A stretch of DNA of 64,000 nt from Mesostigma viride (lineage: Eukaryota; Streptophyta; Mesostigmatophyceae; Mesostigmatales; Mesostigmataceae), in contig RPFO01000165.1 of assembly GCA_009746045.1 (NCBI GenBank), positions 6,827,036 through 6,891,035 of the forward strand. The letters run 5' to 3'. A program made the position numbers and the translations under genes. Numbering within the stretch: position 1 is the first letter of the stretch; every line of letters begins with the position of its first letter. The notes under the pieces are model-generated. The model was not told the origin of the DNA. It did not search any database and saw nothing but the letters and a program-made list of their open reading frames with translations. Below are positions 7,001 through 61,742 of this stretch, piece by piece.

Positions 7001-8926
7001 CAAAGTTTGATTCTTGAAAACTTCCCTCGATATGGCCCCCCTCCCCCGATGTGCCCCTAGATGCCATGCGGCCATGCACACCAACAGGCGCTACAATCCC
7101 ATGCCTCCCATGCGCTGCACAATGTCTGGTGCGCTCTAGCTACCACCCCCACCGTCCATGCCATGCACATTAACATAGTTGCTTAATGTCGACGTAATGA
7201 TTCTGGCGCTCAGCGCTCGGGACCCGATGCACATCCGTATCGGTGCTCACTGTACATAATAATGCCAGTTGGATAACCATGATTCTGAAGTAAAAATCTA
7301 CAATGAAAAGAGCTCACCGCTCGAGACCCTATGCACATCTGTAGAGGTGCTTACTGTCTACAAAACAATGATACTACAATTATACTACAGTGATACTACA
7401 ATGATACTACAATGATACTACAATCATACTACAATGATTATACTACGATGATACTACAATGATACTATGATGATACTACAACGATACTATGTTGTATACC
7501 TATTACTTGTTGTGAAAGAGCGTACCGCTCGGGGCCCCAGGTTGCCGTATGGGTGCTTAGTGCTTACCGTACATAATCATGACAGTAGATTCACCATTAT
7601 TCCATAAGAGAAGGAGCATACCGCTCGGGACCCCAGGTTGCCGTATGGGTGCTTAGTGCTTACCGTACATAATCATGACAGTAGATTCACCATTATTCCA
7701 TAAGAGAAGGAGCATACCGCTCGGGACCCCAGGTTGCCGATCAGGCTCAGCACAAACGTGCCCCCAAAATAGATGAAGTTGCGCTCCGGGCCGAGCCGCC
7801 CGTCGAGGATCGCCGCGCTGTAGAAGGGGACAAACTGGGGGAGCGCTGCGAACACGAGGACAAGGTACAGGTCGGAGTTGAGCAGCTGGTGGACTGCGGG
7901 GGCCGGATCCAGCCCTGCGCGCACGGTAATCTGAAGCCCGACGTCCAGCGGCCGCCCCGCCAGGGTGCTCTCCTGTGCAAACTTCATGAATTGCTGGAAG
8001 TCCTGCACGTGCACGTCGTTCTCGTCGACGATCGCGATCACTTGGGACCAGCCATGCTCGACGACAAAGTCGACGCCCGCCTTGACCTGGGCGGTGGACT
8101 CAAGCGACGTGCGCATGAAGGTCGGGTATGCGACCTTGTTGGAGAGGAAGGGGCTGTTTGCGGTCGCGGAGATTTGGGGGATGTTGCCCGCGCTGGCGAC
8201 GAGCTGGATGATCGTGGACGCCTCGGACGTCGTGCCGCCGAAAATGGCCACCAGGCCTGAACATGGGCGCACGTGGTTTCGTCATACCGCATGCTTCCGT
8301 CCGTTACCACATACTATAGATAATAATAGGCATGGGGGCAGTAATCGCGGGCATGGGAGCAGTAATCACGGGCATGGGGGCAGTAATCATGGGCATGGGG
8401 GCAGTAATCACGGGCATGGGGGCGGTAATGATGGGCATGGGGGCACTAACCACGGGCATGGGGGCGGTAGTTGCGGGCATGGGGGCAGCACTGTCCGGGC
8501 AGTTAAGTATAGCCGACCGTGATGTACCAAGGGGCCACGCACACCAACGCTATTGCCGGAACTAACGTACCAAGGAAGCCATGAACATGCACCTAAAAAA
8601 CAACCATGTGGCGGCATGGTACACTAGTAACCTTACGGCCGATCAAAATGTACCGATGGGGCCACCCTGGCTGCTGGCGACAACCCAGGAGAGAGTGTAC
8701 GCTTTGGGTGGGGGGGAAAGAGGGCCCGCAGACACCCCTCACCCCCTGAAAGAGGGGGGGGGGGGGGCGGGGCTTAAGGAGTTGGCCCCCGCCTCCTTCC
8801 CCCCCCTCCTCCCCCCCCCTAGCTGGGTTTTTAAGGGTTGCATGCCCCAACATGGGCCTGGAAGGCGGTTTTCTGGGGCTCCATCCCCTTCCCGTTGGGT
8901 GTAGAACGGGGGGTTAGGGGGGCCTT

Positions 8927-8959
<33 letters not shown>

Positions 8960-9773
8960 CCCAACCCAACCCAACCCAACCCAACCCAACCCAACCCAAC
9001 CCAACCCCAGGGTCCTCGAGAAGGGGGCCAAGAGGCAACATACGGTCGCTCAGGGCTTGTTGTCGCGAACAGCCGGATGGTAGGATCAAATACTTCAGCA
9101 AGCGGCACGTGCTGCCCCCTTACCCCCCCCCCAAAAAAAATGATTGCTAGCACATGACGTGGCCACATGATGCAAGCGCTCGAAAGGCCACAACCCTGCT
9201 GGCTAGTGACAAATATCTCTACGCCGCATCTTTCACACCAAAGGACCTTGGTAACAAAAAAGCAAGGTCAAGACTGGCCACTTCGTCGCTGTTCGATGGT
9301 GTGGTACCAACACATAGACTAGCTCAATGGCAAAACCAATTATAACAACCAGGCACTGGCTGCTGAACCCGCCGCTAGTGAAAGCCACTCGATGTACCTG
9401 GTGTTGCGGCGATTTTTGTAATGGCGTCAAAAACGCTCTTTCTGTCTTCTGCATCGTATAAACCCCATACGTTTTCGAAAAGCACTTCCGGAAGGAACGA
9501 AGAATCGGAGTTGATTTGGTTGAACGCAAGCTCCATCAGCGCGTACTGCGTTCCCGCCTGCAGGGTGGCCGAATCTCGAAGGACCACATTTGCAACTCTA
9601 AGCACTACGCGGTTGCCGTCGCAGATGCATGTACCGTTGGCAGGGCGTGGGCAACCTGAGCCGATTGCCGTGGCTAGGTTGTTAGCCAGCGTGAAACATA
9701 GGACGAGGATGAATGGCCGAAAGCGCTTCAGCTTGGTGCGCCGTGCAGCAGGATGCTCCGCGCAACCCTGCAT
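1071..9773 (-). CDS. receptor-type guanylate cyclase (ligand-binding, kinase-homology and class III cyclase domains)
   Basis: Five exons on the minus strand: 9773-9398, 8256-7718, 6193-4614, 3879-3114 and 1661-1071. All splice phases agree and give about 1,283 aa. Residues about 17-40 are a basic-then-hydrophobic signal sequence or anchor. Residues about 60-480 form a periplasmic-binding-protein type extracellular domain (GLVAIFGGTTSEAS, and NxT/S glycosylation-type sites). A proline-rich linker precedes one membrane segment at about 519-541. The kinase-homology region follows: it has HGDLNPK instead of HRDxKxxN, has no recognisable DFG, and keeps an APE-like motif (AAPEVLAG), so it is probably a pseudokinase, as in animal receptor cyclases. 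The cyclase domain from about residue 1008 has both metal aspartates (FSDIVGFT, IGDAYMVVG), the Glu of VETIGD and the Cys of YCLFGDTVN that favour GTP, and the transition-state Asn/Arg of VNMTNRIE. Expected reaction: GTP to cGMP at a membrane in response to an extracellular ligand. The ATG at 9773 is chosen because the longer frame upstream has only a GTG. The ligand is unknown. Confidence 0.9.
1700..1860. repeat. AT-rich GAATAGTAT-type repeat in cyclase intron 4
   Basis: Imperfect short repeats of the pattern gaata-gtat/ataatatg inside the last intron of the cyclase gene. Confidence 0.6.
2279..2525. repeat. minisatellite of about 60 bp, four to five copies
   Basis: Units share GGTGGTCAGATCCCAAGGTC followed by gctccaacagcaacc. 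Intronic in the cyclase gene; no resemblance to the neighbouring exons was seen. Confidence 0.8.
2964..3052 (+). mobile_element. tRNA-like SINE fragment (family B), copy 1
   Basis: The segment shares GGATCAGGAGACCCCTAT and AGAGGTCCTGTGTT with a second copy at 55.6 kb. A B-box-like GTGTTCGAATTC resembles the RNA polymerase III internal promoter. Downstream CAGTATCGTACCAAAT also occurs, sometimes inverted, near 2.63 kb, 2.69 kb and 50.5 kb, so it may be the body of the same family. It lies in intron 4 of the cyclase. Confidence 0.55.
3969..4247. repeat. 35 bp minisatellite, about eight copies
   Basis: Near-perfect tandem units containing TGCCATGGTGCCATAGGCAT. Located in intron 3 of the cyclase gene. 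Confidence 0.95.
4298..4455. repeat. second 35 bp minisatellite, about 4.5 copies
   Basis: Units begin gaatatgaaaagg and end ttgctctcgt. They share the core gttgttgggtatg with the adjoining 24 bp array, so the two arrays are probably related by descent. Confidence 0.9.
4456..4590. repeat. 24 bp minisatellite, about five copies
   Basis: Units read gaacataagatggttgttgg plus gtat. The array runs up to the donor side of cyclase exon 3 but does not copy exon sequence. Confidence 0.9.
6200..6380. repeat. G-rich GGGGAAA-type low-complexity tract
   Basis: Purine-rich plus strand next to the acceptor of cyclase exon 3. On the minus (gene) strand it is an extended polypyrimidine tract, as expected before an acceptor but much longer than usual. 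Confidence 0.75.
7214..7717 (-). repeat. tandem copies of the cyclase exon 2 donor junction
   Basis: Exon 2 ends at 7718 with GGGGTCCCGAGCG followed by the donor GTATGC. Copies of this exon end with flanking intron start at about 7622 and 7526 (96 bp period, nearly identical), with older ones at 7318 (donor GTGAGC) and 7214 (donor lost). The copies are intronic and could serve as alternative donors. Confidence 0.8.
7370..7500. repeat. ATGATACTACA short tandem repeat
   Basis: About ten imperfect 10-13 bp units of the type atgatactacaa, lying between junction copies in intron 2 of the cyclase. Confidence 0.85.
8331..8495. repeat. 18 bp minisatellite in cyclase intron 1
   Basis: About nine copies of GGCATGGGGGCAGTAATC with small variation. 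Not coding. Confidence 0.9.
8918..9006. repeat. poly-C tract followed by (CCAAC)n
   Basis: A run of roughly 30 C residues leads into about nine CCAAC pentamers, all inside cyclase intron 1. Confidence 0.9.
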
Positions 9774-27133: not shown

Positions 27134-27545
27134 AGCACTCCAGCTAGTTGTCTAGATGGGGGCAATCGATGATGGGATAGCTTAGGCATTACAGCACTTG
27201 AAACGATATTAGCGCACAGCGTTATAGTACCTTCAATTAGCTCTGGCACCTTGTGGCCATCAGCTTGCGCCTTAATTAGCCGACGTCTTGAGCCCACCTC
27301 ACATTTGTAGCATAAGCTATGCGTCAGCCTACCTATGGTATTGCACTGGTTGTATTGCACCCACAGTGTTGCGCCCCGGCACCATGCCGTGGAGAGAGCG
27401 CTCTGTGGCCTGCCCACCTGCGGCAGTGAGAGAAGCTAGGGCGCCCTCCCTCCTTCTCACTGTGTATATAGGGTTGAAGGTTCCTTTACTCTGTATTGGC
27501 ACCCACGTGACGCAGTCACGTGCTTATTAATTAATTAACCATCAT
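27134..27545 (+). mobile_element. 3' end of the ORF1-only LINE-like element
   Basis: Contains gagagagcgctctgtggcct and agctagggcgccctccctcc, shared with the inverted copy at 34.05-34.25 kb. It ends with CACGTGACGCAGTCACGTG at 27504-27522 and TTATTAATTAATTAA. The coding element upstream plus this tail make a unit of about 1.9 kb. Confidence 0.75.
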
Positions 27546-28359: not shown

Positions 28360-31300
28360 CTAGGCGGGCTGGAAGGAAGAAGAATCCGTTTTCTTGAAAA
28401 AGTCCGCCACCTCGCGCCATGACAACTGGTCGTGACCTGCACAGAATAGAATTTGAAATTGGCAATGCCGAGCGCCAAGTGCAGCATGTGAGATGATCGC
28501 ATAAACATAGGTGCAGCAATCCAGGCAAAGGAAACTGCTAGGCTTTGGGAGGACAACCCCCTGGGGTAAACTGGCAAAGGGTCGCTTTGCCAGTTCTAAT
28601 GGTTTGTTGCAACAGATCCTGCCCACAGAATTTCTCATTCTAGAGAAGTTCAACTACTCTATTTGCTAGTAACTCCTCCATTTGCTTGAGCATGTCAGCA
28701 CACCTCTCCTTCTTCTTCCAACTAACCAATGTATTGAAAAAATGAACAAACTGCACACAGAGGTAACCTCCTTACTGCGTTGCTCCACTTGGTTGAGGAT
28801 ATCGGCTACCTCTCTTTCTTCTTCTAACAAACAAACAAACAAACAAACAAACAAACAAACAAACAAACAAACAAACAAACAAACAAACAAACAAACAAAC
28901 AAACAAACAAACAAACAAACAAACAAACAAACAAACAAACAAACAAACAAACAAACAAACAAACAAACAAACAAACAAACAAACAAACAAACAAACAAAC
29001 AAACAAACAAACAAACAAACAAACAAACAAACAAACAAACAAACAAACAAACAAACAAACAAACAAACAAACAAACAAACAAACAAACAAACAAACAAAC
29101 AAACAAACAAACAAACAAACAAACAAACAAACTTATGAACCAAACGAACTAACTGCACATTGAGGTGGCCTTCTTACCGCGTTGCTCCACCTGGTTGAGG
29201 ATGTCGGCGTAAGTCTCTTTCTTCTTAGTGGACGGCCACACCATGGCCACCATGTCCAGCATGCGTTTGACCTGGCCATAGTCACGGTAGACATAAAAAC
29301 CCAAAGTAAGATTTGAAAACAGTTAGGGAAGACGGCCACACCATGGACGCCATGGCCAGCCTGCGCTTGACCTGTAATGGCCATATTGAAGATATGCAAA
29401 CAACGATCTGAGGATATACAACAGTTAGGGAAGACGGCCACACCACGGGCGCCATGGCCAGATTGTGGTTGTCCTGTCCTGGACAGTCATGAGAAGAATA
29501 ATTTTAAGAGCTGAAATAGTTAGGAAAGGACAGAATAAGCCACCATGCCAAAATCGCGTTCCTCCTGACACGACCAGTCGCAAATGATGGCTAGTCCCAG
29601 GATTCAATACAGTACACATTTTAGAAAGGGCGAGCATAGGCGCACCTCCTCGTAGTTGCTCAGCATTAAAGCACAGCCCTTGTAATACATTCAAATAGAG
29701 CACACCTCGTGGCTGCGCAGCATTAAGCAATAGCCCTTCAGCATTAAAACACAGCCCTTAAAAAATTCACATACAGCGCACCTCCTCGTGGCTGCGCAGC
29801 ACTAAAAAACAGCCGCTGAGCTACAAAAAAAGCACCCCATCGGACCACAGCCCTCATGATAATCAAACGAAACGTGCATCTTCGTGGCTGTGCAGCGCAC
29901 CAGGGCATATTAAGTAGGGTTACACCGCCCGCATTGGTAGTTAATAAAATAAAGAATTGGTCGAAAACTTTCCGCCTGAAAACGTTAAAACAAACAAAGA
30001 AATTTTAATGAACAAAGTCCCTGGGCTTTGGATTTGCATTAGAGACAAACTAGCAAACAAACAAAGTAAATAAATTAGTTTCATCTTGCCGGCCCTGGGG
30101 GGTTACTCTGGGGGAAACAGCAAGCTGAAACAACAGAAAATCAGGGGATCTCACCGTAGTATTTAATAAGTACCCGACTGCCTTGAACGGCTGGACGACG
30201 AAAAAACAAAGACTTTTCAATACATAAAGAAAAGCCGGGGGCCCTACTTGGCTCCCAACAATCGATCCAGGGGGATTCAAAATGCACAGAGGGCAGAAAT
30301 TGGGTATGCATTATAACTACCAATGCGGGCGGTGTAGCCTATTGGTTAGATAAGGCGAGCATAAGCGTACCTCCTCATGGCTGCGCAGTGCCTGCAGGTA
30401 CTGCTTCTTGTCCACAAACCCGTGCACGTCCATCGAGTAAAACACCTCTTTGAGACGGCGCAAGTCAACCTGCATCGCCAGCGGCTTGGGCCGCATCTGC
30501 AAACAGGTGGCGCCATTCGGGCGTGGGAGGCAAGAGGTGGGAGGTGGGAGGTGGGAAGTGGCAGGTGACAGGTGACACGTGGCAGGTGGGAGGTGGGGCT
30601 GACCATGAGGAACGCCCAGGGAGGGAACTTGATACCACATGACAGGGTTTACCTTGGGCACCCCCGCCCCCAATGGGAGGGAGAGAGACCCCTTCCCAAT
30701 AGCACAAATAGGACGTACCGCGGACCATGGTCCTGATACTTGCGATTCTGCACATACCTTGTGCAGCCCCGCCCCTGATGCCAGCAAACCGGACATCATC
30801 CCAATAGCACACATAGGACGTGCCGAGGGCCATGTTCTAATTTTGTCAGTTCAATACCCCTGAAAATGAGCAAAATCATCACTCATACTTGCGATTCTAC
30901 ACCTTCTGTGTGAGCCATCACCCCCGGAGGGAAACAGACCCCTTCCCAATCAAAAAAACGGATGAGTGGGGCCAACCTCGAACGAGAGAGAGACCCCTTC
31001 CCAATCCTATGATTAGGGCCAACCAATACTATTGAGTGGGGCCAACCAATACGATGAGTAGGGCCAACCAATACTATTAGTGGGGCCAACCAATACTATG
31101 AGTAGGGCCAACCAATACTATGAGTTGGGCGAACCAATACTATGAGTAGGGCCAACCTGGGACACATTCAAAAGAACAAATACAGGGCATAAAGCCAAGT
31201 CCGACTTATTGCTCCGTCCTAAACCGGCGCCATGCCACTAATAGGTCACACTGACGTAAATGGTCCGACCTAAACTTGCAAAATTAAAAAAAAAAAAAAA

Positions 31301-31712
31301 ATGCGGACCAAAGTAAGTCGGTTCAGGGAAAATCGGAGCGTCGAGTACAATCGACCGTTCAGTCTGTGGCCTCCCGATTCTCCCGACTTTTGTACAGACC
31401 GTTCTATGTGCCTGCGCATACGCCCCAAACCGGTACGGTGCACATCGCGGGTTGTATCCTGGCATCGGACAAGAAAATTTCTGGTCGGGGTAGCAGAAGG
31501 GGTGAAGCGCTCCCTGAGCCAACTAGTTGGTCGTACTGACTTAAGCAGGTTGGACGGCATTTAAGTCGGAGCAGCCTTCAGAAGGGGTCTGCTACACGTA
31601 CCTTGGGCGTTGCCGCCCCTGAGGGCGGCGAGCCGGACTCTACCACGCTGCCGGCCGCGCTGGCATCATCCCCCCGCTCGTCGGTGTACGCGTTGAAGTT
31701 GATGCTCTCCAT
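28360..31712 (-). CDS. small protein with an EF-hand-like segment
   Basis: Four exons on the minus strand with matching phases: 31712-31602, 30496-30371, 29271-29178 and 28436-28360, giving 135 aa. The first exon (from an internal ATG) is disordered and Ser/Asp/Gly-rich. The second has LKEVFYSMDVHGFVDKKQYL, a helix-loop-helix with Asp, Gly and a hydrophobic residue in EF-hand positions but a short, irregular loop. The last exon (HDQLSWREVADFFKKTD) could be the second half of a paired hand. Calcium binding is therefore uncertain. An acceptor at 31747 (ttggcag) would extend exon 1 upstream, so these exons might instead be the 3' part of the larger minus-strand coiled-coil gene. The phase does not fit a direct join, so I keep them apart. 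Introns hold degenerate copies of exons 2 and 3. Confidence 0.6.
28676..28828 (-). repeat. two degenerate copies of EF-hand-like gene exon 3 end
   Basis: On the minus strand, 28776-28828 reads KKEREVADILNQVEQR and 28676-28715 reads KKKERCADMLKQMEELL, against KKKETYADILNQVEQR in the real exon. Both lie in the last intron. Confidence 0.75.
28829..29131. repeat. (CAAA)n tetranucleotide satellite, about 75 units
   Basis: Essentially perfect over 300 bp and located directly beside a copy of exon 3 of the EF-hand-like gene. Long frames on either strand are artefacts. Confidence 0.99.
29325..29480 (-). repeat. copies of EF-hand-like gene exon 3 acceptor side
   Basis: Segments ggacgccatggccagcctgc and gggcgccatggccagattg, each preceded by gacggccacacca, correspond to the start of exon 3 (29271 side). 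They lie about 90 and 200 bp upstream of it in the intron. Confidence 0.65.
29640..29905 (-). repeat. four copies of EF-hand-like gene exon 2 donor junction
   Basis: Exon 2 ends CTGCGCAGCCATGAGGAG before donor GTACGC. Variants with a following GTGCGC or GTGTGC occur at about 29641, 29700, 29777 and 29873. Confidence 0.75.
30520..30605. repeat. GGGAGGTG-type short repeat
   Basis: About eight imperfect copies of gtgggaggtgg or gtgacaggt, intronic upstream of exon 2 of the EF-hand-like gene. Confidence 0.7.
31010..31160. repeat. about 22 bp tandem repeat GGGCCAACCAATACTATGAG
   Basis: Seven imperfect units, intronic. Confidence 0.85.
31195..31595. repeat. GTCGGA-rich dispersed repeat, related to 60.45-60.51 kb
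   Basis: Contains taggtcacactgacgtaaat and ggtccgacctaaa, an A15 run, and at its end taagtcggagcag...agaaggggtct. The last part matches sequence at 60480-60511, and the first matches its inverse. Probably a fragmentary short element. Confidence 0.4.
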
Positions 31713-32344
31713 AGGACCTTTGGCCGGGTGGGCCGTCCCACGTGTGCTGCCAACAGACGTCACGGACAAACACCCATTTTCGAAAGGAGCGCAAGCAGAT
31801 AGGAATACTTACAATAGTTTTATTAGGAGCGTTATACACCGCCATGCTTTCGGGGGGATCCGTTGCCCCAAGGGTTGTAATGCAGGGAGATGTCGCAGAC
31901 CCACCCATTTCATGATTATAGCTAGTATGCGGCTACTATGTTTCCATGTTTGCTATTAGCAGCAAGCCCTTTGGTGTGATGCGTGGACTTGCTATATGTC
32001 CTGCGAGTAGGCGTCCAGATCCCCCATCCGTTTCATTAAGCCCTAGCAGTTACTTTACATGGGTTTTCTCATCACAAACAGTAAATAAAAGTGTGTTTGG
32101 TCTTCAGCGTGAACGCGCTTCTCATGCCACGGACAGGCGTAGCGATTCCCTTTGGCTATTCTTAGTCAAGCCCTTATTGTTAATAGAAATTGTGTCCTCA
32201 TGAGAACAAGACTTTTCATCGACACCTTGAATGCACCTTGCGAGCCTTTTGAATCGAAACCTGGACTCATGACAACTTGCATGGCATCTTGCAGGCTTTG
32301 TCATCGACACCTTGAATGCATGCATCTTGCTACACCACACAGCA

Positions 32345-32860
32345 TGTCCCACCTCATATTGTAACTAGAAGACCCACCTCACATTGTAACTAGAAGACAA
32401 CACCTTGTAACTAGGAAACCCACATCACATTGTAACTAGAAGACCCGCATCACATTGTAACTAGAAGACCCACCTCGCATTGTAACTAGAAGACAACACC
32501 TTGTAACTAGGAAACCCACCTCACCAGCTAACTAGAAGACCCACATCACATTGTAACCAGAAGACCCACATCACATTGTAACTAGAAGACCCACCTCACA
32601 TTGTAACTAGAAGACCCACCTCACGTTGTAACTAGAAAACCCACCTCACATTGTAACTAGAAAAAACACCTCACATTGTAACTAGAAAACCCACCTCACA
32701 TTGTAACTAGAAAAAACACCTCACATTGTAACTAGAAGACTGCACATTGCAACTAGAAAACCCACCTCACACTGAAACTAGAAAAACCACCTCACATTGA
32801 AACTAGAAAACCCACCTCACACTGTAACTAGAAGACAACACATTGTGACTAGAACACACA
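32345..32860. repeat. minisatellite, CACCTCACATTGTAACTAGA units
   Basis: About 21 imperfect units of 22-27 bp; between genes. Confidence 0.95.
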
Positions 32861-32939
32861 AAAATAGCCGTAACAGTGCACCCGGTGAAGTGGGTCCTCC
32901 TCCACATGCCAGGCGATAGGCTGCGGGCCAGCGCTCACT

Positions 32940-33530
32940 TTTCTTGTGCGAGAGAGCTTGTGTGAGGGCAATGGCCCAACACTCACCCGCGCATGATAGG
33001 CAACACGTCGGAAGAATTGAAAGAATTAACGTCGCTGGCGGGGGCTCACCTCCTGGTGGTGCCGTTTTCCGAGTGGGGCGTACTTGTGCCGCTCACCGCC
33101 GTCTGCGGGAACCAAGGAGGGGTGTGGGTGGAGGGTGGGAGGGACTGATTGATTAGGACAAATCAGGATTGATTAGGGGTGAAGCAGGGACCAGGGTACT
33201 TGTGCCGCTCACGGCCGTCTGTGTGAAGTGGTGTGGGCAGAGAGTGGTGAGGACCAGTTATTAGGCACTAAAAAGAGTGAAGCGAGGCCCAGGGGTCGCG
33301 GTGGTTCTTGTGAGCCGAGAAGGGGTGGGTAGGTAGCAAGCGCGGGCAGAGGGTGGGAGGGAAGGATTTAGATAGTGGGAGGGAGGGGAAGAGGGTGGGA
33401 GAGACTAGGATATAGATAGCGACAGGCCATGAAAGAGGGTGGGAGGGACTAGAAAATAAATGATGAGATGGGAATCGCGGCGCTTGTGCCACTGATGACC
33501 ACCTGCGGATGGCACAGAGGTGTGGCTGCC
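32940..33530. repeat. imperfect repeats around GTACTTGTGCCGCTCAC
   Basis: Three related segments (33079, 33196 and 33481) on the minus strand read a possible acceptor CGCAG, six bases ACGGCG, then donor-like GTGAGC. They could be copies of a junction or microexon, but no reading frame supports this. Confidence 0.35.
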
Positions 33531-33544
33531 AAGTGCCAACGATG

Positions 33545-33720
33545 GTCATCTCATGGGGAGAGCCTCCAGTATTAATGGAAAGAGCCGCTAGTATTAATGG
33601 GGAGAGCCGCCAGTATTAATGGGGAGAGCCGCTGTATTAATCGGGAGAGCCGCTAGTATTAATCGGGAGAGCCGCTAGTATTAATAGGGAGAGCCGCTAG
33701 TATTAATGGGGAGAGCCAAA
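33545..33720. repeat. about 24 bp minisatellite, GGGAGAGCCGCTAGTATTAA
   Basis: Eight units with few differences; no link to an exon was seen. Confidence 0.95.
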
Positions 33721-34004
33721 CAAGTCGATTTGAGAACACCTACCAAAGGGGAATTGGCCCACCTTGGCAAGCGCTGGGTGAAGATGAAGCATGGCTCAGC
33801 TTGAAATGTTTAATAAGAATAAGAAATAAGAATGATAACGATGTAATTAGAGATAAACCAAGGTCCACCTTGGCATTAAGGTGAGTAAAACACACCCCAC
33901 CTTGGCCAATATGTACGTCAAGCACGGCCCATCTTGGCCACTAAAGAAACCACGGCACACCTTTGGGGAATATTCTACGAGTGTTTAAACCCTAGTTAGT
34001 TAGG

Positions 34005-34047
34005 TTTTAAACCCTAGACCCTAGACCCTAAACCCTAAACCCTAAAC
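34005..34047. repeat. interstitial telomere-type repeat (CCCTAAA)n
   Basis: Six units, the first degenerate (ccctaga) and the last three perfect CCCTAAA, immediately followed by the TTAA-like tail of a LINE copy. The unit is the plant/green algal TTTAGGG type. Confidence 0.85.
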
Positions 34048-34250
34048 AAGTAATCGTGATTAATTTATTAATTGTCACGTAGACTGCGTCACGTGGGTTC
34101 CAATGAAGGAACCTTCAACCCCTGCACACAATGAGAAGGAGGGAGGGCGCCCTAGCTTCTCTCACTGCCCTTAGTGGCCAGGCCACAGAGCGCTCTCTCC
34201 GCATCATGGTGCGGGCGCAACTGTGGGTGCAATAAAGCTTCGACATATAG
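34048..34250 (-). mobile_element. 5'-truncated copy of the ORF1-element 3' end
   Basis: The reverse complement matches 27346-27545, including gagagagcgctctgtggcct and agctagggcgccctccctcc. The terminal hairpin at 34076-34095 has one inserted base (CACGTAGACTGCGTCACGTG on the plus strand). The tail reads ATTAATTTATTAATT and abuts the telomere-type repeat. Confidence 0.8.
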
Positions 34251-34423
34251 CAAAAGTGTGGCGGATGCAGCTCGGTTGCCCCATGGTCCAGAGCCCACAG
34301 ATAGGCTTGGAACGCATTTAGAGGTGCCAGATTGGGAGAATATAGAGGCCTCTCCCGGAGCATGGAGCAGTTGTGATAACGATGACGATAAGTGATGATA
34401 ATGACAGAAAAATCACCACATCA

Positions 34424-50384
<15,961 letters not shown>

Positions 50385-51459
50385 TTCCTTCCTACTTGCC
50401 AGCACCTTGCTATTCTAACCTATCCGCGCTCTAAAATTGCAGCTATCCGGCTATGACGGGGATGCTGCCAGAATTCTCTGCACGTGCGCACTGAAAGATT
50501 TGGTACGATACTGCATGCGCGGTCAAGAACAAACGGATTTCACGCTAATAACAGATAGCCGTGCGTCTCTTGCATTCCGCCTAACTGGTCTACTTTGTTC
50601 ACCCATTGAAAGCAATTATTCAAGTCACCAAGGTTTGCACAAAGCTGTCGCAAAGACAATCTTCAAATCTCCATTCGGTTTGAAGTGACATATAATAATG
50701 AAACTGCGCACCTGCTCAGGACCTGCTGCGTAATCAAATTTGCGCGTTTGGAAATAAGGAAATACCAAATCCGAAAGGCTTGCATCACTCCCCGGACAGG
50801 AGAACTTTTGCGGATGACTGTAGGTGTAAGTTGGCGATGCCATGGTAACCGGAGACGTCCGTCCTATAGTCAGCAAAATTGGTGCGAGAGGTCCCCAGTT
50901 CGATTCCGGTCGGATTCATTTGCAGATCGCGTTTTCCGCGTTTTCCGCGGCCCGGCACTGAACGCAAAGGTTTTCACCTCTGCGGCGTGCCTGATCAGAA
51001 TAAGGAAATGGCACGTTCTTCATGGTCAAACGCCGAGTTGTTATTATCATACGAACAAAGTTGAGTACCTAGTAACCGGAAGTACTGTCATGCCAAATTT
51101 TTTTAAATCCAACTACTGAAAAATTTATTCATGCTACTGTACTCGGGAGAATTTGTACGACCAAATGAGATTTATCCGTTGTAGGATCAAGTCTCGTGTG
51201 GGGATCTCCGACCCGGCCACACCACCGAATTCCTTCTGCGGGAAAACCACCTGTTACCACATGCATGGGAAGTAAGGCTTACGCCAGGCTCCAACTCACA
51301 CCACGGGTGTGGCGCCCAAGCCCTGTCGATTATCACGTGTGTTTTTCGTGCGCGCACGCAGCTCTCAAAACGCGAGCGTGCGCAGGCCGCACGACATCTA
51401 CCACCACAATGCATTTGGATTAGAGAGTCTGGAAGCAGAGAACAACCCCCAGTTTGAAA
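50385..51459. promoter_or_regulatory. divergent intergenic region between ADIP-type and TRIC genes
   Basis: About 1,075 bp separates the two start codons, so both promoters should lie here. Part of it is a SINE insertion, and a family-B-like tail (TTTGGTACGATACTG) is near 50505. No TATA box or other core element stands out. Confidence 0.5.
50748..51006 (+). mobile_element. tRNA-like SINE (family A), copy 2
   Basis: Matches the inverse of 23046-23287 nearly completely. CCTATAGTC, then AGAGGTCC, then the B-box-like GTTCGATTCC read on this strand. Inserted in the divergent promoter region. Confidence 0.75.
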
Positions 51460-54400
51460 ATGTTAGACATTACGGGGCTGAAGCTAGATTTAGTGCAAGA
51501 GCTAAACAATGCTTCGGTCGCTCTCGGCAAGAACCTTGAGCCACTTTATCCGCAGGCTCGACAGCTGGCTACTGCTCTCTCCTCCATCCCCGAAGAGTAT
51601 CTACTGTTAGGCCACTGCCTGGTGATATCCTCAGCTGGCCGCCATCTGCCGTTCAAGACGCATTTTATTGTCTACTTTTGGGTCGCCTTTTTCACTGGCT
51701 TCGCCGGGGGCACGACAACTGCCCTCTTAATGCAGGTGCGGCTTGCATACTCGGGTTTCCAGCAATTCACCGCATTTTCTTTCGGTATCACATGGCGAGT
51801 ATCAGCTATGAAATTTTTCTCTTCAATCTTTTTTTGTTGCGTAATTTTCTTCAGCATTGCAGCATTGTGATTAGAACCAGTTCCTTGCATCTCCAAAGCT
51901 CTTAGAGTTTGCTTTCCATTCCAGAGTGGCGCAATAGCTGACTATCCATGCAAGCGACAAAAAAAATGCAAGCCGGACACAATTTTGGAAAATTGAAGAC
52001 ACGATGTTGGAAAATTGAAGTCTGCAATGTTATTCCAGCCACCGCATTAGCGGCTTGAGCATTGTCATCAAGGGCGTGAAGTCCCTGACGTTCGCTTTGG
52101 ACAATGACGTAACGTTTGCGTGTGCTGCCAACATCTGCTGCCGAAATGTGCTGCCAAGTTTGCTGCCAAAACGTGCTCCAAAAATGTGCTGCCGACATGT
52201 GCTGCCAAACCGTGGTGCCAAAACGTGATGCGGATGCAGGAAGCGCCGAGTTGGTTCACGAATAACATGGTGATGCTCGTTTGGACCGCGACATGGTGCG
52301 TTGGTGTTTCCTACATCCATAAGTACATGCTAGACAGGCCTCGGTTGGGTGTCCTTGGTACCACCGATGCATCCTAGAATACGCCATTGCCACTGCTAGT
52401 CGGCCGAGAGTTTGCATTAGGGTTGTTGTGATGCTCATTGTGTCCCTCTAATTGGCTAGTTAATGTTGGGTGCTAACAGCCCGCCTTGCCTCGTTCCTTT
52501 TGCCCCTGGGGTGACCTGGTGCGTCCCTGCCAGGTACGCCATGAACTACCTCCCCTGGAACCTGGGTGCAAAGATCTACGACAACCTGCTGCCGCTGAGG
52601 GTACGTATATACTTGGCACCGTGCGCCTTGTTCTGTCACGGCACGCCCCGAATATAGGCAACCTGCGGCCGCGGAGGGTACGGGGCTATACTTGGCGCCT
52701 TGTGCCTGGTTGTGTCTTGACACAGGTGTGATTCCTCGAGGATCAGCAACCTGCTGCCGCGGAGGGTACGGCACGTTTGGTGGAGCTGTTCGTGTCGTGT
52801 CATGCGCTGGTGTGGTATCTACTTCCCAAAGTAACCTGCTGCCAGTGGGGCAACCACCAAGTCGCGTGCTTAATCATGCCGAGGCAGTTGGCCTACCTTT
52901 TCTCAACTCTGTGGTAATGCTTCCCAGCAGCCACTGTGTATTGTACTCGCATATCCATACCAGTTGGGTTAGGGTTCTTTCTAGCTAGTCAAGTATACTA
53001 CGCAAGTTTGTCCGGTGAGTCCTGATCTATCTCAGGCTCGGTGTCAGTCACCACACGTTTGAGCGTTGATAACAATCCTTTAACTACCCTGATAACAATC
53101 CCTTATGAGCGATCCCTTGTTGTTGATATTCCCTTGTTGACAATCCCTAGTCGACAATCCCTTATTATAAACAGCCTTATTGTTAACCATCCCTATTTGT
53201 TAACAATCCCCTTGTTGTTAAAAATCCCCTTGTTGTTAACAATCCCCTTGTTGTTAACAATCCCCTTGTTGTTGACAATCCCCTTGTTGTTAACAATCCC
53301 CTATTTGTTAACAATCCCCTTGTTGTTAACAATCCCCTATTTGTTAACAATCCCCTTGTTGACTCAATTCCAGCACCATGAATGACCGCTGTCGGCATGC
53401 GCGACCATGTCAGCAAACGCATAAACAATGTCGTAATACTTCCCCGCGCCCATGGCAATGTTGTGAGATAACCTGTTGATGTCCTATTACCCTATTCATA
53501 GCCTAGTAACGTCCAACTCTCAACCGACATGGCGAAGCTGGCTCTACTCCCTCCCCCACCCCCACATTTATTATTTTCCATCTTCTGTGTTGAATCTCTA
53601 TCTCATCGTGCCTATCTCATCGTGCCTATCTCACCGTGCCTATCTCATCGTGCCTATCTCACCGTGCCTATCTCATTGTGCCTATCTCATTGTGCCTATC
53701 TCATTGTGCCTATCTCGTCGTGCCTATCCCTTCTTTTGCCATCTCCCCATCTTTTGAATCTCCATGTCACCGCGGCTATCCCACCGTGCATCTCATCCCC
53801 CACCGTGCATCTCATCCCCCGCCGTGCCCTGTGCGTTGACGGCGGCTGCGCACGGCTACGGCATTTCCCTGGTCCTGTGTTTAAACCATCCATCGTATGT
53901 CCATCTCACTGGATGACCCCCTATATTCCGCACGGGCTTCGGGCCCACCGTGCTGCGCGAACGGCTGGCGGTTTTGTGCGTCGGCACGTGCAACTTGCTG
54001 GCGGCGGAGCCCTCGTCCACGGTGTCTTGTGGCCATGCCTTGTGCGGCGCCTTGTGACCTGCCACGGTGTGTTGTGACCGTGCCTTGTGAAATGTGCTGC
54101 TGCATGGATTCATGGCGGGTGGCATCGTGATGGGTTGCCATCGTCGCACCGTGGTGGGCGCTGCCCTGGCGCCGTGACGGATGCGGGCACAGCTGTGCGC
54201 TCAAGTGGGGTTCGCCTACTCGCGCTCGAGGCTCATTGTCACCAAGGCAGGTCCAATGATAATGTTAATACTAATACATTGTTGTTATGACTTACAATAT
54301 GTGCCTAACTGTATGTCCTTATATGTGCCTAACTATATGTCCTAATATGTGCTTATTGCCTAACTACATGTCCTAATATGTGCCTAACTATGTGTCCTAA

Positions 54401-57400
54401 TATGTGCCTAATATGTCCACTCTACTGCTACCGCTTGTGCTCGAGGCTCATCGTCATCAAGGCAGGTCCTAGATTTAAAATAATATTGTTGTCATGTAGT
54501 ACTACTATGTGCCTAACTAGTAGTATGGTTAATTATAATATTGTTGTCATGTAGTACTACTATGTGCCCAACTAGTAGTATGGTTACAGGTACTATCACC
54601 ACGGCCACCCATAGAGCCACCAGTATGTGCCACACACCACCACCACGAGTGCAGCGTGCTTGTCTGTTTGTAGAACTACGTTTCCGCATGCTGGTAACGG
54701 GCTGCTGGCCTGCGCAAGGACAGCCACAGGCAACGTTCGCGTGCCCTTGAAATGTGCGTTCGTTTGCTAGTCCATATACTACCTAGGCTAGTAGTATTAG
54801 GCTATTTTCTCATATACCACCTAGGCTAGTAGTATTAGGCTATCTTCTCATATACCACCTAGGCTAGTAGTATCAGGCTATTTTCTCATGTACTACCTAG
54901 GCTAGTAGTAAATAGGCTATCTTCTCATATACTACCTAGGCTAGTAGTATTAGGCTATCTTCTCATAAACCACCTAGGCTAGTAGTATTAGGCTATCTTC
55001 TCATATACCACCTAGGCTAGTAGTATAAGGCTATTTTCTCATATACCACCCAGGCTAGTAGTATTAGGCTATCTTCTCATATACTACCTAGGCTAGCAGT
55101 ATTAGGCTATCTTCTCATATACCACCTAGGCTAGTTGTATTAGGCTATTTTCTCATATACCACCTAGGCTAGCAGTATTAGGCTATTTTCTCATATAACA
55201 CCTAGGCTAGTAGTATTAGGCTATTTTCTCATATACTACCTAGGCTTGTAGTATTAGGCTATTTTCTCATGTGTTATCATCTGCCGCGCTCCCCTCACAA
55301 CAACCCCAGGTGAACGCGGCGCTGGCGCTGTATGGGCGCGGAGCGATTGCAGGGCCATTGATAATCGGGACGCTCTCCGGTGTGTGCCAACCTGTGGCTT
55401 TGCTCTCGCCCACCACATGGTCCAGCAAGTGGCCTTGTCGTACGTACTACATCGCTACAGCTGCGCAAGGCGTTTGGCTTGCTATGCCGTTGGAACACTG
55501 TACAGTCCTCTCTTGGCCTCACCGTACAGTGATGTACAGTGTTCAGTGGTGAAGACAGGGCCCATGCCTGCTGTGTTGCGTAGCTTTGCTTCCGCCTAAG
55601 GCATCCTCCTCCCTTGGTCGTCCTTATTCCGCACCCCTTGCGATGCCAGAGGATCAGGAGACCCCTATCATCGCGAGATTGTGCTAGAGGTCCTGTGTTT
55701 GAGTCCCAATACCCTACCAAAATTTCGCGCTCAGTGCAAAGCGTACTTGATCTATAGCAAGGCTTTCTCGTCGTCGCGCCCACTGTGCCATTTTCCTCTC
55801 TGGCCATACAAACAGTGGGCTTATCGTCTGCAAGGATTTCACAATGGCTGCCTTGTCTCAGTAGTGGACATACACGGACACGTCTGCCTTATGATAGTTC
55901 ATATGTGGTCCTTGTGATGGTTCCTATTCCATGCACCTAATGCTTTGTGATAGTTCCTATGTGGTCCTTGTGATAGTTCCTATTCCATGCACCTAATGCT
56001 TTGTGATAGTTCATATGTGGTCCTTGTGATAGTTCCTATTCCATGCACCTAATGCTTTGTGATAGTTCATATGTGGTTCTTGTGATGGTTCCTATTCCAT
56101 GCACCTAATGCTTTGTGATAGTTCATATGTGGTCCTTGTGATAGTTCCTATTCCATGCACCTAATGCTTTGTGATAGTTCCTATGTGGTCCTTGTGATAG
56201 TTCCTATTCCATGCACCTAATGCTTTGTGATAGTTCCTATGTGGTCCTTGTGATAGTTCCTATTCCATGCACCTAATGCTTTGTGATAGTTCCTATGTGG
56301 TCCTTGTGATAGTTCCTATTCCATGCACCTAATGCTTGTGCGAGTCCTAATGCCCGCACCAGACTTTCTGATGCATGGTACTAATGAATGCACTCCATAC
56401 CCTAATGCTTCTGCCGAAAGCCCTTTGTCCTTCTCCTGTGAGTTTCGCCTCTCACAAGACTGGCTCTTTGCCTTCCCTTTTCCTGATCCGCCGCGTCTTG
56501 CGCTCCCACGGGCTGCACCGGCAACTGGACGCGTGTGCCGCTCATGCTAACATCCGTTACCGTTACCTTTTGCTGGCTCCCTGCCTCGCGCTACTGCAGG
56601 CTGCGCCGGCAAGCTCACGCGTGTGCCGCTCATGCTAACATCTGTTACCGATACCTTTTGTTGGCTCCTTGCCTTGCGCTACTGCAGGCTGTGCCGGCAA
56701 GCTCACGCGCGACCTGGTCGGACGGCTATGGGGGGAGGAGCCAACACACAAGTCTGAGATGGCCACCCCCTCGTGGTAAGTGCCTCGCTCCCCGGCTGTG
56801 TGGCATCCTTGTTGGAAACAGTGCAGGAATAGAAGTTAACCAGTTGGAGCAGCCAGCACACAAGTCTGAGATGCCCCCCCCCGCCCCCCTAGTGATGTTC
56901 CTGGTGAGGCCCGCGGGCTCCGCCCAGCCCCAAATGGCAGTCCGAGCAGCCAACCGCCCCGCGTGCAGTCCACGTTTTAGTGTTCTGGATTGGGCGTAGC
57001 TTGCAGACCGCCCACTACCGGCCCGCTTTCGGGTTCCCGTGTCTGGAATGGACGCATACTTGGGGAGCTCCCAATAGTCCGGGACAGGTGGACCTTCCTC
57101 AAGTAGTGAAGTAGATTATCCGTCCTGATACCTGATACCTGATACCTGATACCTGATATCTGAAATCTAATGTCGGATATCTAATCATTCAATTTTGACA
57201 TGAGGGTATCTTCTTATATCTGATTCATGATGTACGATACCTGAATTCTTTTCTTAATAATCATAATTGTATCTGTGATATCATATACTATAGAGTATAT
57301 ACTACTATAGATAGATACGATATAGATATAGATATCATATACTATAGAGTATATCATATACTATAGAGCACCAGATATCAGTGCCCCTGTCTATGTACCA

Positions 57401-59851
57401 CACAATCTGACCCCACAGTGTGGGGTCACCAGCGTGGAATGTGGCGGTGACGTTGTTGGCTGTTTGGTCCAAATCTTTCTTGGCAAGGGCAAGCGAAAGC
57501 GCAACTCAGCAAGGGCGACCGCAAGCGAACTCACCCGCATGGAGCGTCGTCCGAGTCAGCCTTCATGGGAGCGTCCCTGTACCTGCTGGTGTCCGCGTGG
57601 CTGCTCACACCTGCATCCTACCCTGTCTGTCTACCTTGCCCTGGTATCGGATACCTGCTGGCATCGTCCCTTGTTCTGTACCGCACAGGTCCTCCAAGTC
57701 AGCCTTCATGGGAGCGTTCCTGTACCTGCTCATGTCCGTGTGGCTGCCCATCCTGCCCCAGGACGTTGCCTTCACCCTGGTGGCCACCCTGCTGGTGGGT
57801 TGTGGGCCAGCTACTCATACCATTCACAAACCAGGCACTCTTTAAGCGTATTTTTAGTCCAAGGGAATGGTAGGCTACTCCAAGGCAATAGGACATTGAT
57901 AGGTGATGCCGCCATAATAAGTAATGCCATCAGGCTTTGCAATTCTCTAGCAGTCCTCTCGGTCTGGCCGGACTGGCCCTTTTCCCCATTCAAAGCAGGT
58001 CCTGGGCGTCCTTAAGTGTTATACGGATCACAGCGGGGGGTAAATTGCGTGATCATTGTACCGTCTCATTCCCAGCTCGTTTGCTCTGTTGTGTTCATGC
58101 GGCGTTGCCTGGCCATGTCATCCTAATCCGCCAATGATCCCAAAACTGGGCATACGGGTCCCACCACCACGCCAGCTGGCGCACGCGCTGGCGTCAGAGA
58201 TTCTGGGCGCCTTTGACCCACTGGACGCCCCCTTCCGGGCCCTCTGCAAGATCTGGTGAGTTGCTGCCTTCCTTCTTTGGAAGAGTCTACCTACCTTGAA
58301 GCGTCTACCTTGAGAAAACTTTGGGGACAGCCAGGTAGTAGCACCAGGTAGTTCTACCAGGCAGCTCTAGCTTGCAATCCGTAACTCGCAAACTATTACG
58401 CACAAACTCACAAACAGCTGTTCACAACAATAACTCACAAGTAGCCACTCGCAAACAGTGATCTGACGGCCTATTGGAGGTATGATGATACCTGGAGGAC
58501 AGCCAGGTACTGGGAGCAGGAAGCGCCAGCGCATGGATAATATTGTATGGCTTGTGTAATGCACGAATAGTAAGAGCCTTTCCACATATGGTGACGAATG
58601 CGCGCGAATTAGGAGGACTCGGATTGGTCCGGACCGCAGTTCCAGGCTCGAGGTCAGATTAGGCGAGGCGAATAATAATAATTAGCGGTGCCTGAGCGGT
58701 GAATTGATCGTGACCTCCTTTCCACAACCAGATCCGATCCGTACCGTCGTGGCGCTTTCCCCGCCGGTTTTCCCACACCGCCGCTTTCCCACTCGACCTA
58801 CCTTTCTTGACCCTAATTCTGACTGGAACTGACCGGAACTGCTTTTTTCGAGTTCCAGGAGTTCCACCCCAGTTCCGGTCGAATTAGCGGTCGCGTCCAA
58901 TTAGCGGTCTAATTGGACGGTCAAATGTGGAAACCTCTAATTCCGGAACCGACTGAATTAGGACCCTAACCCCCCGGAACTAACGAATGTGGAAAGGGCC
59001 TAACTTTGCAGCTTGGAGCGAATCTACTCTAACATTACTTTCTTTTTCTTTTTATTAACTTGGCAAGCAAACATCGCAGACAAACATGGCAAACTAGCAT
59101 AGCAAACAAGCCAACTTGCCGCTGACATGCTGCCAACCTGGATGCAGCCAACCATTTGCGGCCAACCTAGATGCGGCGAACCTAGCTTTATGACCTATAA
59201 GTTGTTACATTTGGACCGAGCTTGCTGACCTATAAGTTATTACATTTGGACCTAGCTTGTTGACCTATAAGTTATAACATTTGGACCTAGCTTGTTGACC
59301 TATAAGTTATAACATCTGGACCTAGCTTGTTGACCTATTAGTTATAACATCTGGACCTAGCTTGCTGACCTATAGTTATAACATTTGGACCTAGCTTGCA
59401 GACCTATTAGTTATAACATCTGGAGTTCTGGACCTAGCTTGCTGACCTATAAGTTACAACATCTGGACCTAGCTGGTTGACCTAAATATATACTACTATA
59501 TATAACATCTGGACCTAGCTTGCTGACCTGTCTTGCTTGCTGACCCAACATGTGGGCCTGTGTGTCTATCTTGTTTCTATCACGCTGCCACCTGGCGAAA
59601 CCTGCAGCCTCATTCCATTCCCAGGCTCGGTAGCTAGCAGCAGCCCCAAGGCGTCGGCGTCAGGAGCAGCCAGTGGCGGTGCAAAGAGCAATCCGGCAAA
59701 GGAAGGCTCGGCCACAAGGAAGGCCCTTCCAGCTCAGGACAGCGCTGCCACCACCGTACTGGATGGACATGCATCGTCGGCATCCGCCACCAGCCGCATT
59801 GAGAGGAAGCCAGGGGTGCCCAAGCTGTCCGACCTGCGCAAGAGAAAGTGA
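51460..59851 (+). CDS. TMEM38: TRIC (TMEM38-type) intracellular monovalent cation channel
   Basis: Nine exons, phases consistent, 335 aa: 51460-51735, 52240-52295, 52534-52600, 54193-54246, 55310-55379, 56688-56775, 57689-57794, 58176-58255 and 59641-59851. The order of motifs follows the family: a first helix (LGHCLVISSAG), FIVYFWVAFFTGFAGG, then NNMVMLVWTATWYAMNYLPW and NLLPLR (animal: NNASIL...WYLIFF...LPVK), a basic amphipathic stretch RSRLIVTK, GPLIIGTLSGCAGKL, RLWGEEPTHKSEM, SAFMGAFLYLLMSVWLPILP and DVAFTLVATLL, and a Ser/Ala/Lys-rich basic tail ending RKRK. Family members are trimeric K+ channels of the ER that balance charge during Ca2+ release. The first in-frame ATG is at 51460. Intron 4 begins GC (AAG-GCAGGT), the only choice that keeps phase. 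The acceptor of exon 9 is ambiguous by a few bases. Confidence 0.85.
52120..52235. repeat. GTGCTGCCAAA short repeat
   Basis: Six to seven imperfect units next to the acceptor of TRIC exon 2; intronic. Confidence 0.75.
52655..52855 (+). repeat. three copies of TRIC exon 3 donor junction
   Basis: The exon ends CAACCTGCTGCCGCTGAGG before GTACGT. Copies at about 52660 and 52746 keep the donor as GTACGG; one at about 52832 is decayed. Spacing is about 86 bp. Confidence 0.9.
53075..53365. repeat. short repeat, AACAATCCCCTTGTTGTT
   Basis: About 14 imperfect 17-18 bp units in TRIC intron 3. Confidence 0.92.
53590..53735. repeat. 13 bp repeat CCTATCTCATCGTG
   Basis: About ten units of 13-14 bp in TRIC intron 3, followed by a looser ccaccgtgcatctcatcccc duplication. 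Confidence 0.92.
54285..54420. repeat. TGTGCCTAACTATATGTCCT repeat
   Basis: Five to six imperfect units of about 22 bp between the real and copied exon 4 junctions. A second repeat pair (attgttgtcatgtagtacta) is at 54486 and 54541. Confidence 0.88.
54437..54475 (+). repeat. copy of TRIC exon 4 donor junction
   Basis: CTCGAGGCTCATCGTCATCA, then AG followed by GCAGGTCC, matching the exon 4 end and its unusual GC donor about 200 bp downstream. Confidence 0.88.
54768..55272. repeat. about 38 bp minisatellite, CACCTAGGCTAGTAGTATTA
   Basis: About 13 units with ggctattttctcatat; runs almost up to the acceptor of TRIC exon 5. Confidence 0.95.
55634..55730 (+). mobile_element. tRNA-like SINE fragment (family B), copy 2
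   Basis: Shares GGATCAGGAGACCCCTAT and AGAGGTCCTGTGTT with 2964-3052. The B-box position reads GTGTTTGAGTCCC. Intronic in the TRIC gene. Confidence 0.6.
55905..56335. repeat. about 57 bp minisatellite, CCTATTCCATGCACCTAATG
   Basis: Seven to eight units containing tgtgatagttcctatgtggt, in TRIC intron 5. Confidence 0.95.
56512..56645 (+). repeat. two copies of TRIC exon 6 acceptor side
   Basis: The exon starts actgcag, then GCTGTGCCGGCAAGCTCACG. A copy at about 56598 keeps acceptor and start; an older one near 56512 (GGGCTGCACCGGCAACTGGA) has lost it. Spacing is about 85-90 bp. Confidence 0.9.
56842..56880 (+). repeat. copy of TRIC exon 6 internal or donor side
   Basis: ccagcacacaagtctgagatg repeats the exon's ccaacacacaagtctgagat about 105 bp downstream. 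The donor is not retained. Confidence 0.7.
57125..57375. repeat. CTGATACC and ATAGAGTATATCATATACT repeats
   Basis: Short direct repeats followed by an AT-rich palindromic cluster, intronic. Confidence 0.8.
57547..57605 (+). repeat. copy of TRIC exon 7 acceptor side
   Basis: CGTCGTCCGAGTCAGCCTTC and GGGAGC...CTGTACCTGCTGGTGTCCGC match the exon start for about 55 nt, 146 bp upstream of it. It reads SAFMGASLYLLVSAWLL. No clear acceptor AG is retained. Confidence 0.85.
58270..59190. other. TRIC intron 8, left part, no gene seen
   Basis: Contains TCCGGAACT-type inverted motifs near 58800-58990 and small duplications, but no exon that improves the gene model. Confidence 0.4.
59195..59530. repeat. 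about 39 bp minisatellite, GACCTATAAGTTATAACATT
   Basis: Eight to nine variable units with tggacctagcttg, in TRIC intron 8. Confidence 0.95.
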
Positions 59852-60436: not shown

Positions 60437-60514
60437 TTGAAAATAAGTTAGCAGTTTATGTCGGTCATTTAGGTCGGACACGGCTTAAGTCGGACGGAGC
60501 AGAAGGGGTCTATT

Positions 60515-61350
60515 ATCAAGGAGACAGCCGGCGCAGGCCAGAAATCGGGAGAATCCGGGGTCTGTGCAACTGCTATGAAATCAGCCCCAAAACGGAGGCC
60601 CTGGCCCTCGGCATGGCAGGGCCCCCACCCACACTCCGCCTCTTAGACGACACCGAGGTCAACTACCCTCCTTCAGGCCGCTTCAAGCTGCTCGGCAGTT
60701 GGCTTCCCGACTGCGAGGACGACCTGACGACACGGATCGGCATGGCGTGGGCGCAACTCCATGCAACTTTCAGACCGTTCAACCACCGCCGCTGGTGGAG
60801 CAAACCCGCCCTTCCCTGGATCGTCAAGCGTGACCTCTTCAAGGTCGTCATTCTGACGATCCTGACCTACTACGGCGCCGAGACCTGGACACTGACGCAG
60901 GAGCTGGAGCAACGACTCGACGGCGCCGTCACCAAGATGCTGCGCAAGGCCCTTAACATCCCCTTTGGTTTGCACATTAGTAATGAGGATTTGTACGCTG
61001 ATTTGCCCTATTTTTCCCTCATTCTTAGGCACAGGTGCCTGGGCCATGCCGGGCACCTGGCCCGCACAGATCAGGTAGACACATCAGATAGACTAGCTGG
61101 CACCAAGCCCGCCCAGCCTGGGCGATATGTCCTCACCTGGCGTGCCCCAGGCCGCGCGCGGCAGGGCCGCCACCCGTGGACTTTTCGTGATAGACTCGGC
61201 ATGGACATGTGCTACACTAGACGTGACGGGCTCACCCCCGGGCAGCCTCCTGGTTTGTCTGTAATATGGAGGCAGATGGTACGCAAGGATAGATGGCAAG
61301 TAGTGATGAAGGAGACCACCCCCAAGTCTGTAGGGGCTCCGCGCGTGTGA
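60515..61350 (+). pseudogene. C-terminal part of a LINE reverse transcriptase (5'-truncated)
   Basis: Open for about 275 codons but without the catalytic YADD block or endonuclease. What remains is the thumb and C-terminal region typical of non-LTR polymerases: ISPKTEALALG, FKLLGSWLPD, AWAQLHATFRP, YGAETWTLTQELEQRLDGAV, LRHRCLGHAGHLAR. A full element would supply ORF2 activities for target-primed reverse transcription. The clade is not assignable from this part. The frame is undisrupted, so truncation at insertion, not later decay, explains the loss. Confidence 0.8.
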
Positions 61351-61596
61351 CCGCGTATGGCATTCATAGCGATTCGGGCCGCGGTGCCCACAACCCTGTA
61401 ACTAGGACCTAGATAGCTTACACCATCCATTCCATCCCATGTTCCCCTCCCACTGAGGACTTATGCTCACGTGACGCAGTCACGTGTTTTCATCATTAAT
61501 TAATTAATTAATTAATTAATTAATTAATTAATTAATTAATTAATTAATTAATTAATTAATTAATTAATTAATTAATTAATTAATTAATTAATTAAT
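61351..61596 (+). mobile_element. LINE 3' untranslated region, terminal hairpin and (TTAA)n tail
   Basis: The 3' region includes ccatccattccatcccatg, the hairpin CACGTGACGCAGTCACGTG at 61468-61486 (8 bp arms, GCA loop), and about 100 bp of perfect TTAA repeats. The long perfect tail suggests a recent insertion or tail slippage. Confidence 0.85.
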
Positions 61597-61742
61597 GATT
61601 GCTATATGCGCCATGGCCCAATACGGGTGGTGGGATTGGCGGGCCGCGGGTCGTACCCTTGGAACATGTCCCCGGCACCTTTACCGGCGCAGCTTTTCGC
61701 AATTAAAGCCGTGCAGGGCATCGGGAAACTTTTTGGAAATGA

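Follow-up and report, generated by a model that had tools for sequence, protein, structure and literature searches.

Intronic copies of exon-intron boundaries in Mesostigma viride, probably minisatellites of the amphioxus mirage type

The window, a stretch of 64,000 nucleotides of Mesostigma viride DNA analyzed here as a whole (contig RPFO01000165.1), carries an ADIP-like gene, a TRIC channel gene, and a receptor guanylate cyclase gene (Table 1). The ADIP-like model reads as a single open reading frame across all 20 exons; its protein matches the Pfam family ADIP (1.4e-20) and is 97% identical to the protein model P0001 of jgi/Mesvir1, a label that we read as Mesostigma viride, with 95% of the query covered. 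P0001 matches the model from E1 to E21 without E3 or E6, two draft exons (4 junctions, 0 copies) that were removed because they are missing from it. It continues past E21 without E22, and support for this last exon comes from the reading frame and from the copies at its junctions. Exons that the original prediction had placed in a separate EF-hand-like gene appear from the sequence to be E21 and E22 of the ADIP-like gene, as the frame is continuous and E21 is present in P0001. The TRIC protein is 92% identical over 92% to the jgi/Mesvir1 model P0027. Its C-terminal piece matches Pfam TRIC (4.1e-6), its N-terminal piece matched no Pfam family, and the draft exon T3 was removed from the model. 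The intron between T4 and T5 (54246/54247) has the sole GC donor of the TRIC model (AAG/gcaggt), and the decayed intronic copy of the T4 donor retains the GC. The cyclase model is based on a continuous frame of 1277 residues with Pfam matches to ANF_receptor, kinase, and Guanylate_cyc.

Several other features were observed along the stretch. We take the region 15340-19980 on the reverse strand to be a likely OTU-protease-like gene by its motif; its four blocks have local copies in 0, 19, 11, and 2% of windows. Two regions, 25700-27150 and 60500-63700, contain long open frames, along with fragments, that we presume to resemble retroelement genes. Between genes lie ~1.2 kb of 4-nt units (13793-14964) and 919 bp of CCTTGC simple repeat (21600-22518), and an ADIP intron contains a short interstitial TAAACCC tandem repeat (34008-34047) that resembles the plant-type telomere repeat. 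A two-copy tandem repeat of ~93 nt (12061-12248; 94% matches), whose copies differ by 3 nt, sits in what is by eye a coding exon; local duplication may occur in coding sequence too, when in frame.

Table 1. Gene models and intronic copies of exon edges in the window. Fractions are matching over aligned positions; TRF marks arrays found with that program.
Feature	Position	Strand	Copy or array	Remarks
ADIP-like gene	29178..50384	-		20 exons used: E1, E2, E4, E5, E7-E22
TRIC channel gene	51460..59851	+		9 exons; P0027 differs at the N-terminus only
Receptor guanylate cyclase gene	1090..9773	-		5 exons; end of last exon provisional
E5 acceptor-edge copy	49223..49252	-	29/30	Upstream of junction 49144; no intron-side homology found
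E7 donor-edge copy	47668..47726	-	45/59	No intron-side homology found
E8 donor-edge copy	46735..46789	-	40/55	No intron-side homology found
E9 donor array	45606..46106	-	Period 53, 9.3 copies	TRF; enters exon by 18 nt
E10 acceptor-edge copy	44862..44886	-	25/25	Intron flank homologous, 54/84
Copy of most of E11 with donor	43975..44033	-	49/59	No intron-side homology found
E13 donor-edge copy	42060..42132	-	60/78	Flank homologous, 20/23
E14 acceptor array across junction	41146..41692	-	Period 102, 5.4 copies	TRF and alignment
E14 donor-edge copy	40742..40780	-	29/39	No intron-side homology found
E14 donor edge, second copy	Intron position 204-227	-	19/24	
E15 acceptor-edge copies, two	40206-40239; 40470-40534	-	25/34; 44/65	Flanks homologous
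E15 donor-edge copy	39625..39666	-	34/42	No intron-side homology found
E16 donor array	36387..36496	-	Period 49	TRF; flank homologous for nearer of two copies
E18 acceptor-edge copy	34958..35006	-	44/71, gapped	No intron-side homology found
E19 acceptor-edge copy	33196..33218	-	22/23	Flank homologous, 54/82
E20 donor-edge copy	30758..30794	-	27/37	No intron-side homology found
E21 donor-edge copy	29782..29799	-	17/18	No intron-side homology found
E22 acceptor-edge copies, two	29323..29471	-	41/49; 36/47	~100 nt apart; flank homologous
E22 donor-edge copies, two	28676..28823	-	Scores 37, 22	Offsets 354-401 and 460-502 downstream; outside the 62 tested edges
T2 donor-edge copies, two	52652..52765	+	22/27; 18/19	Flank homologous for nearer only
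T4 (GC) donor-edge copy	54434..54461	+	24/28	Flank homologous, 89/127
T6 acceptor array across junction	56511..56709	+	Period 88, 2.3 copies	TRF and alignment
T6 donor-edge copy	56846..56882	+	33/37	No intron-side homology found
T7 acceptor-edge copy	57546..57614	+	60/69	No intron-side homology found
Cyclase C2 donor array	7514..7739	-	Period 96; 22/22, 21/22	TRF; flank homologous for nearer only

In terms of boundary copies, the 40 exon nucleotides at each edge (fewer where the exon is shorter) were aligned to the adjoining intron and to 100 chunks of equal length from other introns, and a copy was scored where the alignment beat all 100 with a z of at least 4. The three rebuilt genes provide 62 edges and 31 introns. 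A copy in the edge's own adjoining intron is found at 23/62 edges (37%), comprising 14/31 donors and 9/31 acceptors, with 17/38 in the ADIP-like gene, 5/16 in TRIC, and 1/8 in the cyclase. Within the same three genes, this test returned no copies for wrong-side (far) exon edges against the same intron (0/40), for exon centres against the adjoining intron (0/24), or for the reverse strand of the exon edges (0/62). An initial run with the draft model and a looser criterion had given 25/64 edges with copies; the E10 donor and the E13 acceptor, which beat 60 nulls in that run, failed the final criterion. The boundary copies in the introns of these genes are thereby confirmed as a real observation, and the expectation of extra intronic copies at no fewer than fifteen junctions, on donor and acceptor sides and of many ages, is borne out, the best copy per junction ranging from 44/71 (gapped, E18) to 25/25 (E10). 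The accompanying statement that exon interiors rarely take part needs correction, as interiors are copied in short exons or by long units, with 59/66 nt of E11 and 69 aligned columns of T7 as cases.

The copied unit visibly extends into the intron at 12 of the 23 junctions with copies. Tandem arrays detected by TRF cross the junction at E9, the E14 acceptor, C2, and the T6 acceptor, reaching ~35 nt into the intron at E9, where seven aligned copies match 16-18 of the 18 exon nucleotides, and ~75 nt at E14. Spaced copies with homologous intron flanks occur at E10, the E13 donor, the E15 acceptor, E16, E19, E22, T2, and T4. Intron-side homology was sought and not found at 11/23 junctions (E5, E7, E8, E11, E14 donor, E15 donor, E18, E20, E21, T6 donor, and T7), nor was any recovered in the intron flanks of the more distant copy at E16, T2, and C2. 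Between copies of the same junction, the gapped identity (taken without a null) of the intron part lies at most 10 points from that of the exon part in 5/9 pairs, among them 28/35 and 40/47 at E22 and 29/39 and 26/34 at E15, and is clearly lower in 4/9 (T2, E14 donor, C2, and one E14 acceptor pair). The nearest detected copy lies at most 160 bp from the junction in 17/23 cases, 215-220 bp in 2 (T4 and the E13 donor), and 323-844 bp in 4/23 (E15 acceptor, E18, E20, and E21).

The missing flank homology of diverged copies may be explained by decay. At E5, the T6 donor, T7, and E21 the exon part is too similar for point decay alone, and at E10 and E19 the drop from exon part to flank exceeds simple two-branch decay (identities in Table 1). 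For young-looking copies that lack their flanks to a degree beyond point decay, a later rearrangement or filler DNA must therefore be assumed. The copies at E5, E21, the T6 donor, and T7 are the best remaining argument for a process tied to the junction.

Such a process, a local mechanism that targets splice sites and copies junctions into introns by way of R-loops, splicing-coupled breaks, or slippage, would account for the gap between edges (23/62) and centres (0/24) and for the recognizable homology that stops near the splice site at 11/23 junctions, the young-looking copies just named among them. The distribution of local duplication along the introns speaks against it. When sliding 40-nt windows are carried through the 31 introns and a copy is sought elsewhere in the same intron, 622/1454 windows (43%) have a local copy, as against 27 for the reverse strand. 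Among windows no more than 40 nt from a junction the fraction is 24% (28/118); it rises to 35% at 40-100 nt, 39% at 100-200 nt, 42% at 200-400 nt, and 54% (233/428) beyond 400 nt, and a scan of the draft model shows the same inward-rising trend. Duplication is thus at least as frequent deep in introns as at junctions. The 37% of exon edges with copies is not above the intron-window mean of 43%, even though conservation of the exon makes edge copies easier to pick up. The arrays at E9 and E14, moreover, run well past the junction into the intron.

The excess of boundaries over centres is also reproduced without any targeting. A simulation of unbiased duplication followed by an exon filter (four settings with three repeats each; unit lengths picked from the observed range) places copies at 13-30% of edges, 3-8% of centres, 1-3% of wrong-side edges, and 24-30% of intron windows. 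The observed values, 0% at centres and at wrong-side edges, follow this pattern, while the observed 37% of edges and 43% of intron windows exceed the simulated rates. The excess alone is thus no proof of a splice-site mechanism, because geometry combined with selection can generate it. The count of boundaries against centres on which the original prediction was to be judged therefore came out as it expected, but is not diagnostic, and the mechanism centred on splice sites is not supported, local copies being rarest at the junctions and commonest far from them. Nor do predicted introns stand apart from other non-coding DNA in a random genome sample. Inside the window, 294/1400 intron windows (30 blocks) have local copies versus 36/921 windows of other DNA (21 blocks; p = 3e-7), a trend also present in an earlier run, whereas random genome blocks give 151/659 windows in 19 predicted introns and 754/2980 in 64 other non-coding blocks (medians 0.10 and 0.08; p = 0.74). 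Intron-specific duplication, strong in the window and unrepeated in the random sample, was dropped. Taken with these observations, splice-site targeting is an unlikely source of the copies.

A second alternative holds that the copies are partial exon duplications retained through splicing as alternative exon ends. The AG, GT, or GC dinucleotide is retained in 22/25 aligned copies; the adjoining exon bases are kept at 257/300, from which ~18/25 dinucleotides would be expected by our own arithmetic. Among 24 copied sites checked (12 acceptor and 12 donor), 3 yield an open in-frame product, namely one E5 copy with an extension of 108 nt and two E14 copies with extensions of 102 and 204 nt. Against this, use of the other 21/24 would cause a frameshift or run into a stop, and a stop interrupts all of the donor-copy extensions (12/12), and the protein models P0001 and P0027 splice at the outer sites. 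Substitutions in the copies are flat across codon positions (42/346, 56/344, and 58/345), which indicates that the copies are not kept as coding sequence. The earlier suggestion that the copies supply ready-made alternative splice sites holds in principle only, in view of the dinucleotide counts, the absence of codon constraint, and the few open in-frame products, and retention as alternative exon ends is very improbable. That misassembly of repetitive sequence created the copies is scarcely credible, for although assemblies may misstate the copy number of an array and an amphioxus mirage is described in the available text of PMC3087553 as aberrantly assembled, the copies here span a wide range of divergence, preserve order as well as side, and are seen again in another gene.

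We consider it likely that the junction copies are mirage-type minisatellites produced by ordinary local tandem duplication placed without regard to splice sites. The copies are direct, they lie on the side that geometry requires, and they carry no codon constraint. Because a tandem copy is a contiguous stretch, exon letters can reach the intron only together with the boundary, and on that side. Under this explanation, frequent local direct tandem duplication, with units from tens of bp to ~220 bp as judged by array periods and copy spacings, would land irrespective of splice sites; the copying step itself could be replication slippage, unequal exchange, or break repair. A unit falling wholly within an exon would alter the protein and presumably be lost, one falling wholly within an intron would make the intron longer, and one lying across a single junction would copy the exon edge and its splice site into the intron. 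If the outermost original site continued to be used, the mRNA would stay correct and the duplication would survive, its copies subsequently drifting as non-coding DNA. The proposal that local copying lengthens introns is supported.

The junction-copy form also occurs elsewhere in the genome, unevenly, and the window is richer in it than the sample. Genomic stretches were searched with a rough home-made exon predictor, whose edges are right in 58-70% of cases on the cyclase and in 75-100% on TRIC and ADIP where it predicts, and 27/35 of whose predictions in the window overlap model exons. Run on the window, this pipeline finds copies at 11/34 edges, 1/15 centres, and 0/24 wrong-side edges. The corresponding counts are 5/120, 1/89, and 0/103 in a first round of the genome sample and 2/44, 0/33, and 0/36 in a second. 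In 25 stretches with 229,805 non-N bases they are 4/90, 0/60, and 1/67, an edge excess that is non-significant (4/90 vs 1/127, p = 0.16; 3/72 for chains of at least 4, p = 0.31). Two of the random stretches are probably satellite-like DNA: in L017, 67-92% of windows in ten blocks have local repeats, and in L021 up to 100%.

We further examined two dynein heavy-chain loci, picked with their letters unseen from twelve that had at least two exon blocks, for their many blocks and long gaps. Here the blocks come from a Pfam profile search, and the edges are the ends of profile matches rather than exact junctions. Copies are found at 4/14 edges, 0/14 wrong-side edges, and 0/14 centres; the edges with copies are 4/8 in L034 and 0/6 in L035. 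One L034 block, which contains two stop codons, probably extends into the intron. It is possible, though we regard it as rather doubtful, that local tandem duplication has gene-specific hot spots, in the ADIP/TRIC region and in one dynein heavy-chain gene, whose introns are still growing by units that carry junctions. The alga would then present boundary duplications at all stages, fresh as well as decayed, a natural series for following how introns grow, how splice sites are chosen, and perhaps how introns are gained.

The closest known relatives of these copies come from amphioxus. In the available text of PMC3087553, "mirages" are minisatellites that span exon-intron junctions, with units of 10 to ~160 bp at 5' and 3' boundaries, varied identity, and many copies that keep AG/GT; regular splicing is undisturbed, and length is unstable between haplotypes or in soma. 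The phenomenon, which the original prediction did not know as a described system, had thus already been reported. As far as that text goes, the Mesostigma copies are alike in that the unit spans the exon-intron boundary (12/23 junctions with copies), in that 5' and 3' boundaries are both hit (14/31 donors and 9/31 acceptors), and in that the splice dinucleotide is kept (22/25 copies). They differ from the mirages of the same text in having larger spacings at 6/23 junctions, four of them at 323-844 bp; in their host, a streptophyte alga, where 17/38 tested junctions are affected in one gene; and in the dispersed, decayed copies that stand beside neat arrays, the likeness itself being drawn from genome sequence. 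Introners are characterized by near-identical introns dispersed across many genes; in the present analysis, other introns of the three genes entered as the null. The reference list of the amphioxus mirage paper includes the Adh3 paper (Canestro et al. 2002, NAR 30:2871).

The systems treated in the available portions of PMC3443670 and PMC4974935 likewise involve tandem duplication of segments with splice-site sequence, but what is seen in Mesostigma is the lengthening of existing introns. For the Mesostigma viride genome, PMC6947507 as available gives repeats as 30.1% of intron space and a mean intron of 1141.9 bp; its main text has 0 occurrences of "tandem repeat", "splice", and "intergenic", so that the junction-spanning form is seemingly undiscussed in that text. 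If the turnover of copies is fast, the species would allow a direct test of intron lengthening and of the choice by the spliceosome of the outer of near-identical sites. Prior algal reports are possible, and the present stretch would add a streptophyte alga to amphioxus as a host of junction-spanning minisatellites, of which it provides a dense example.
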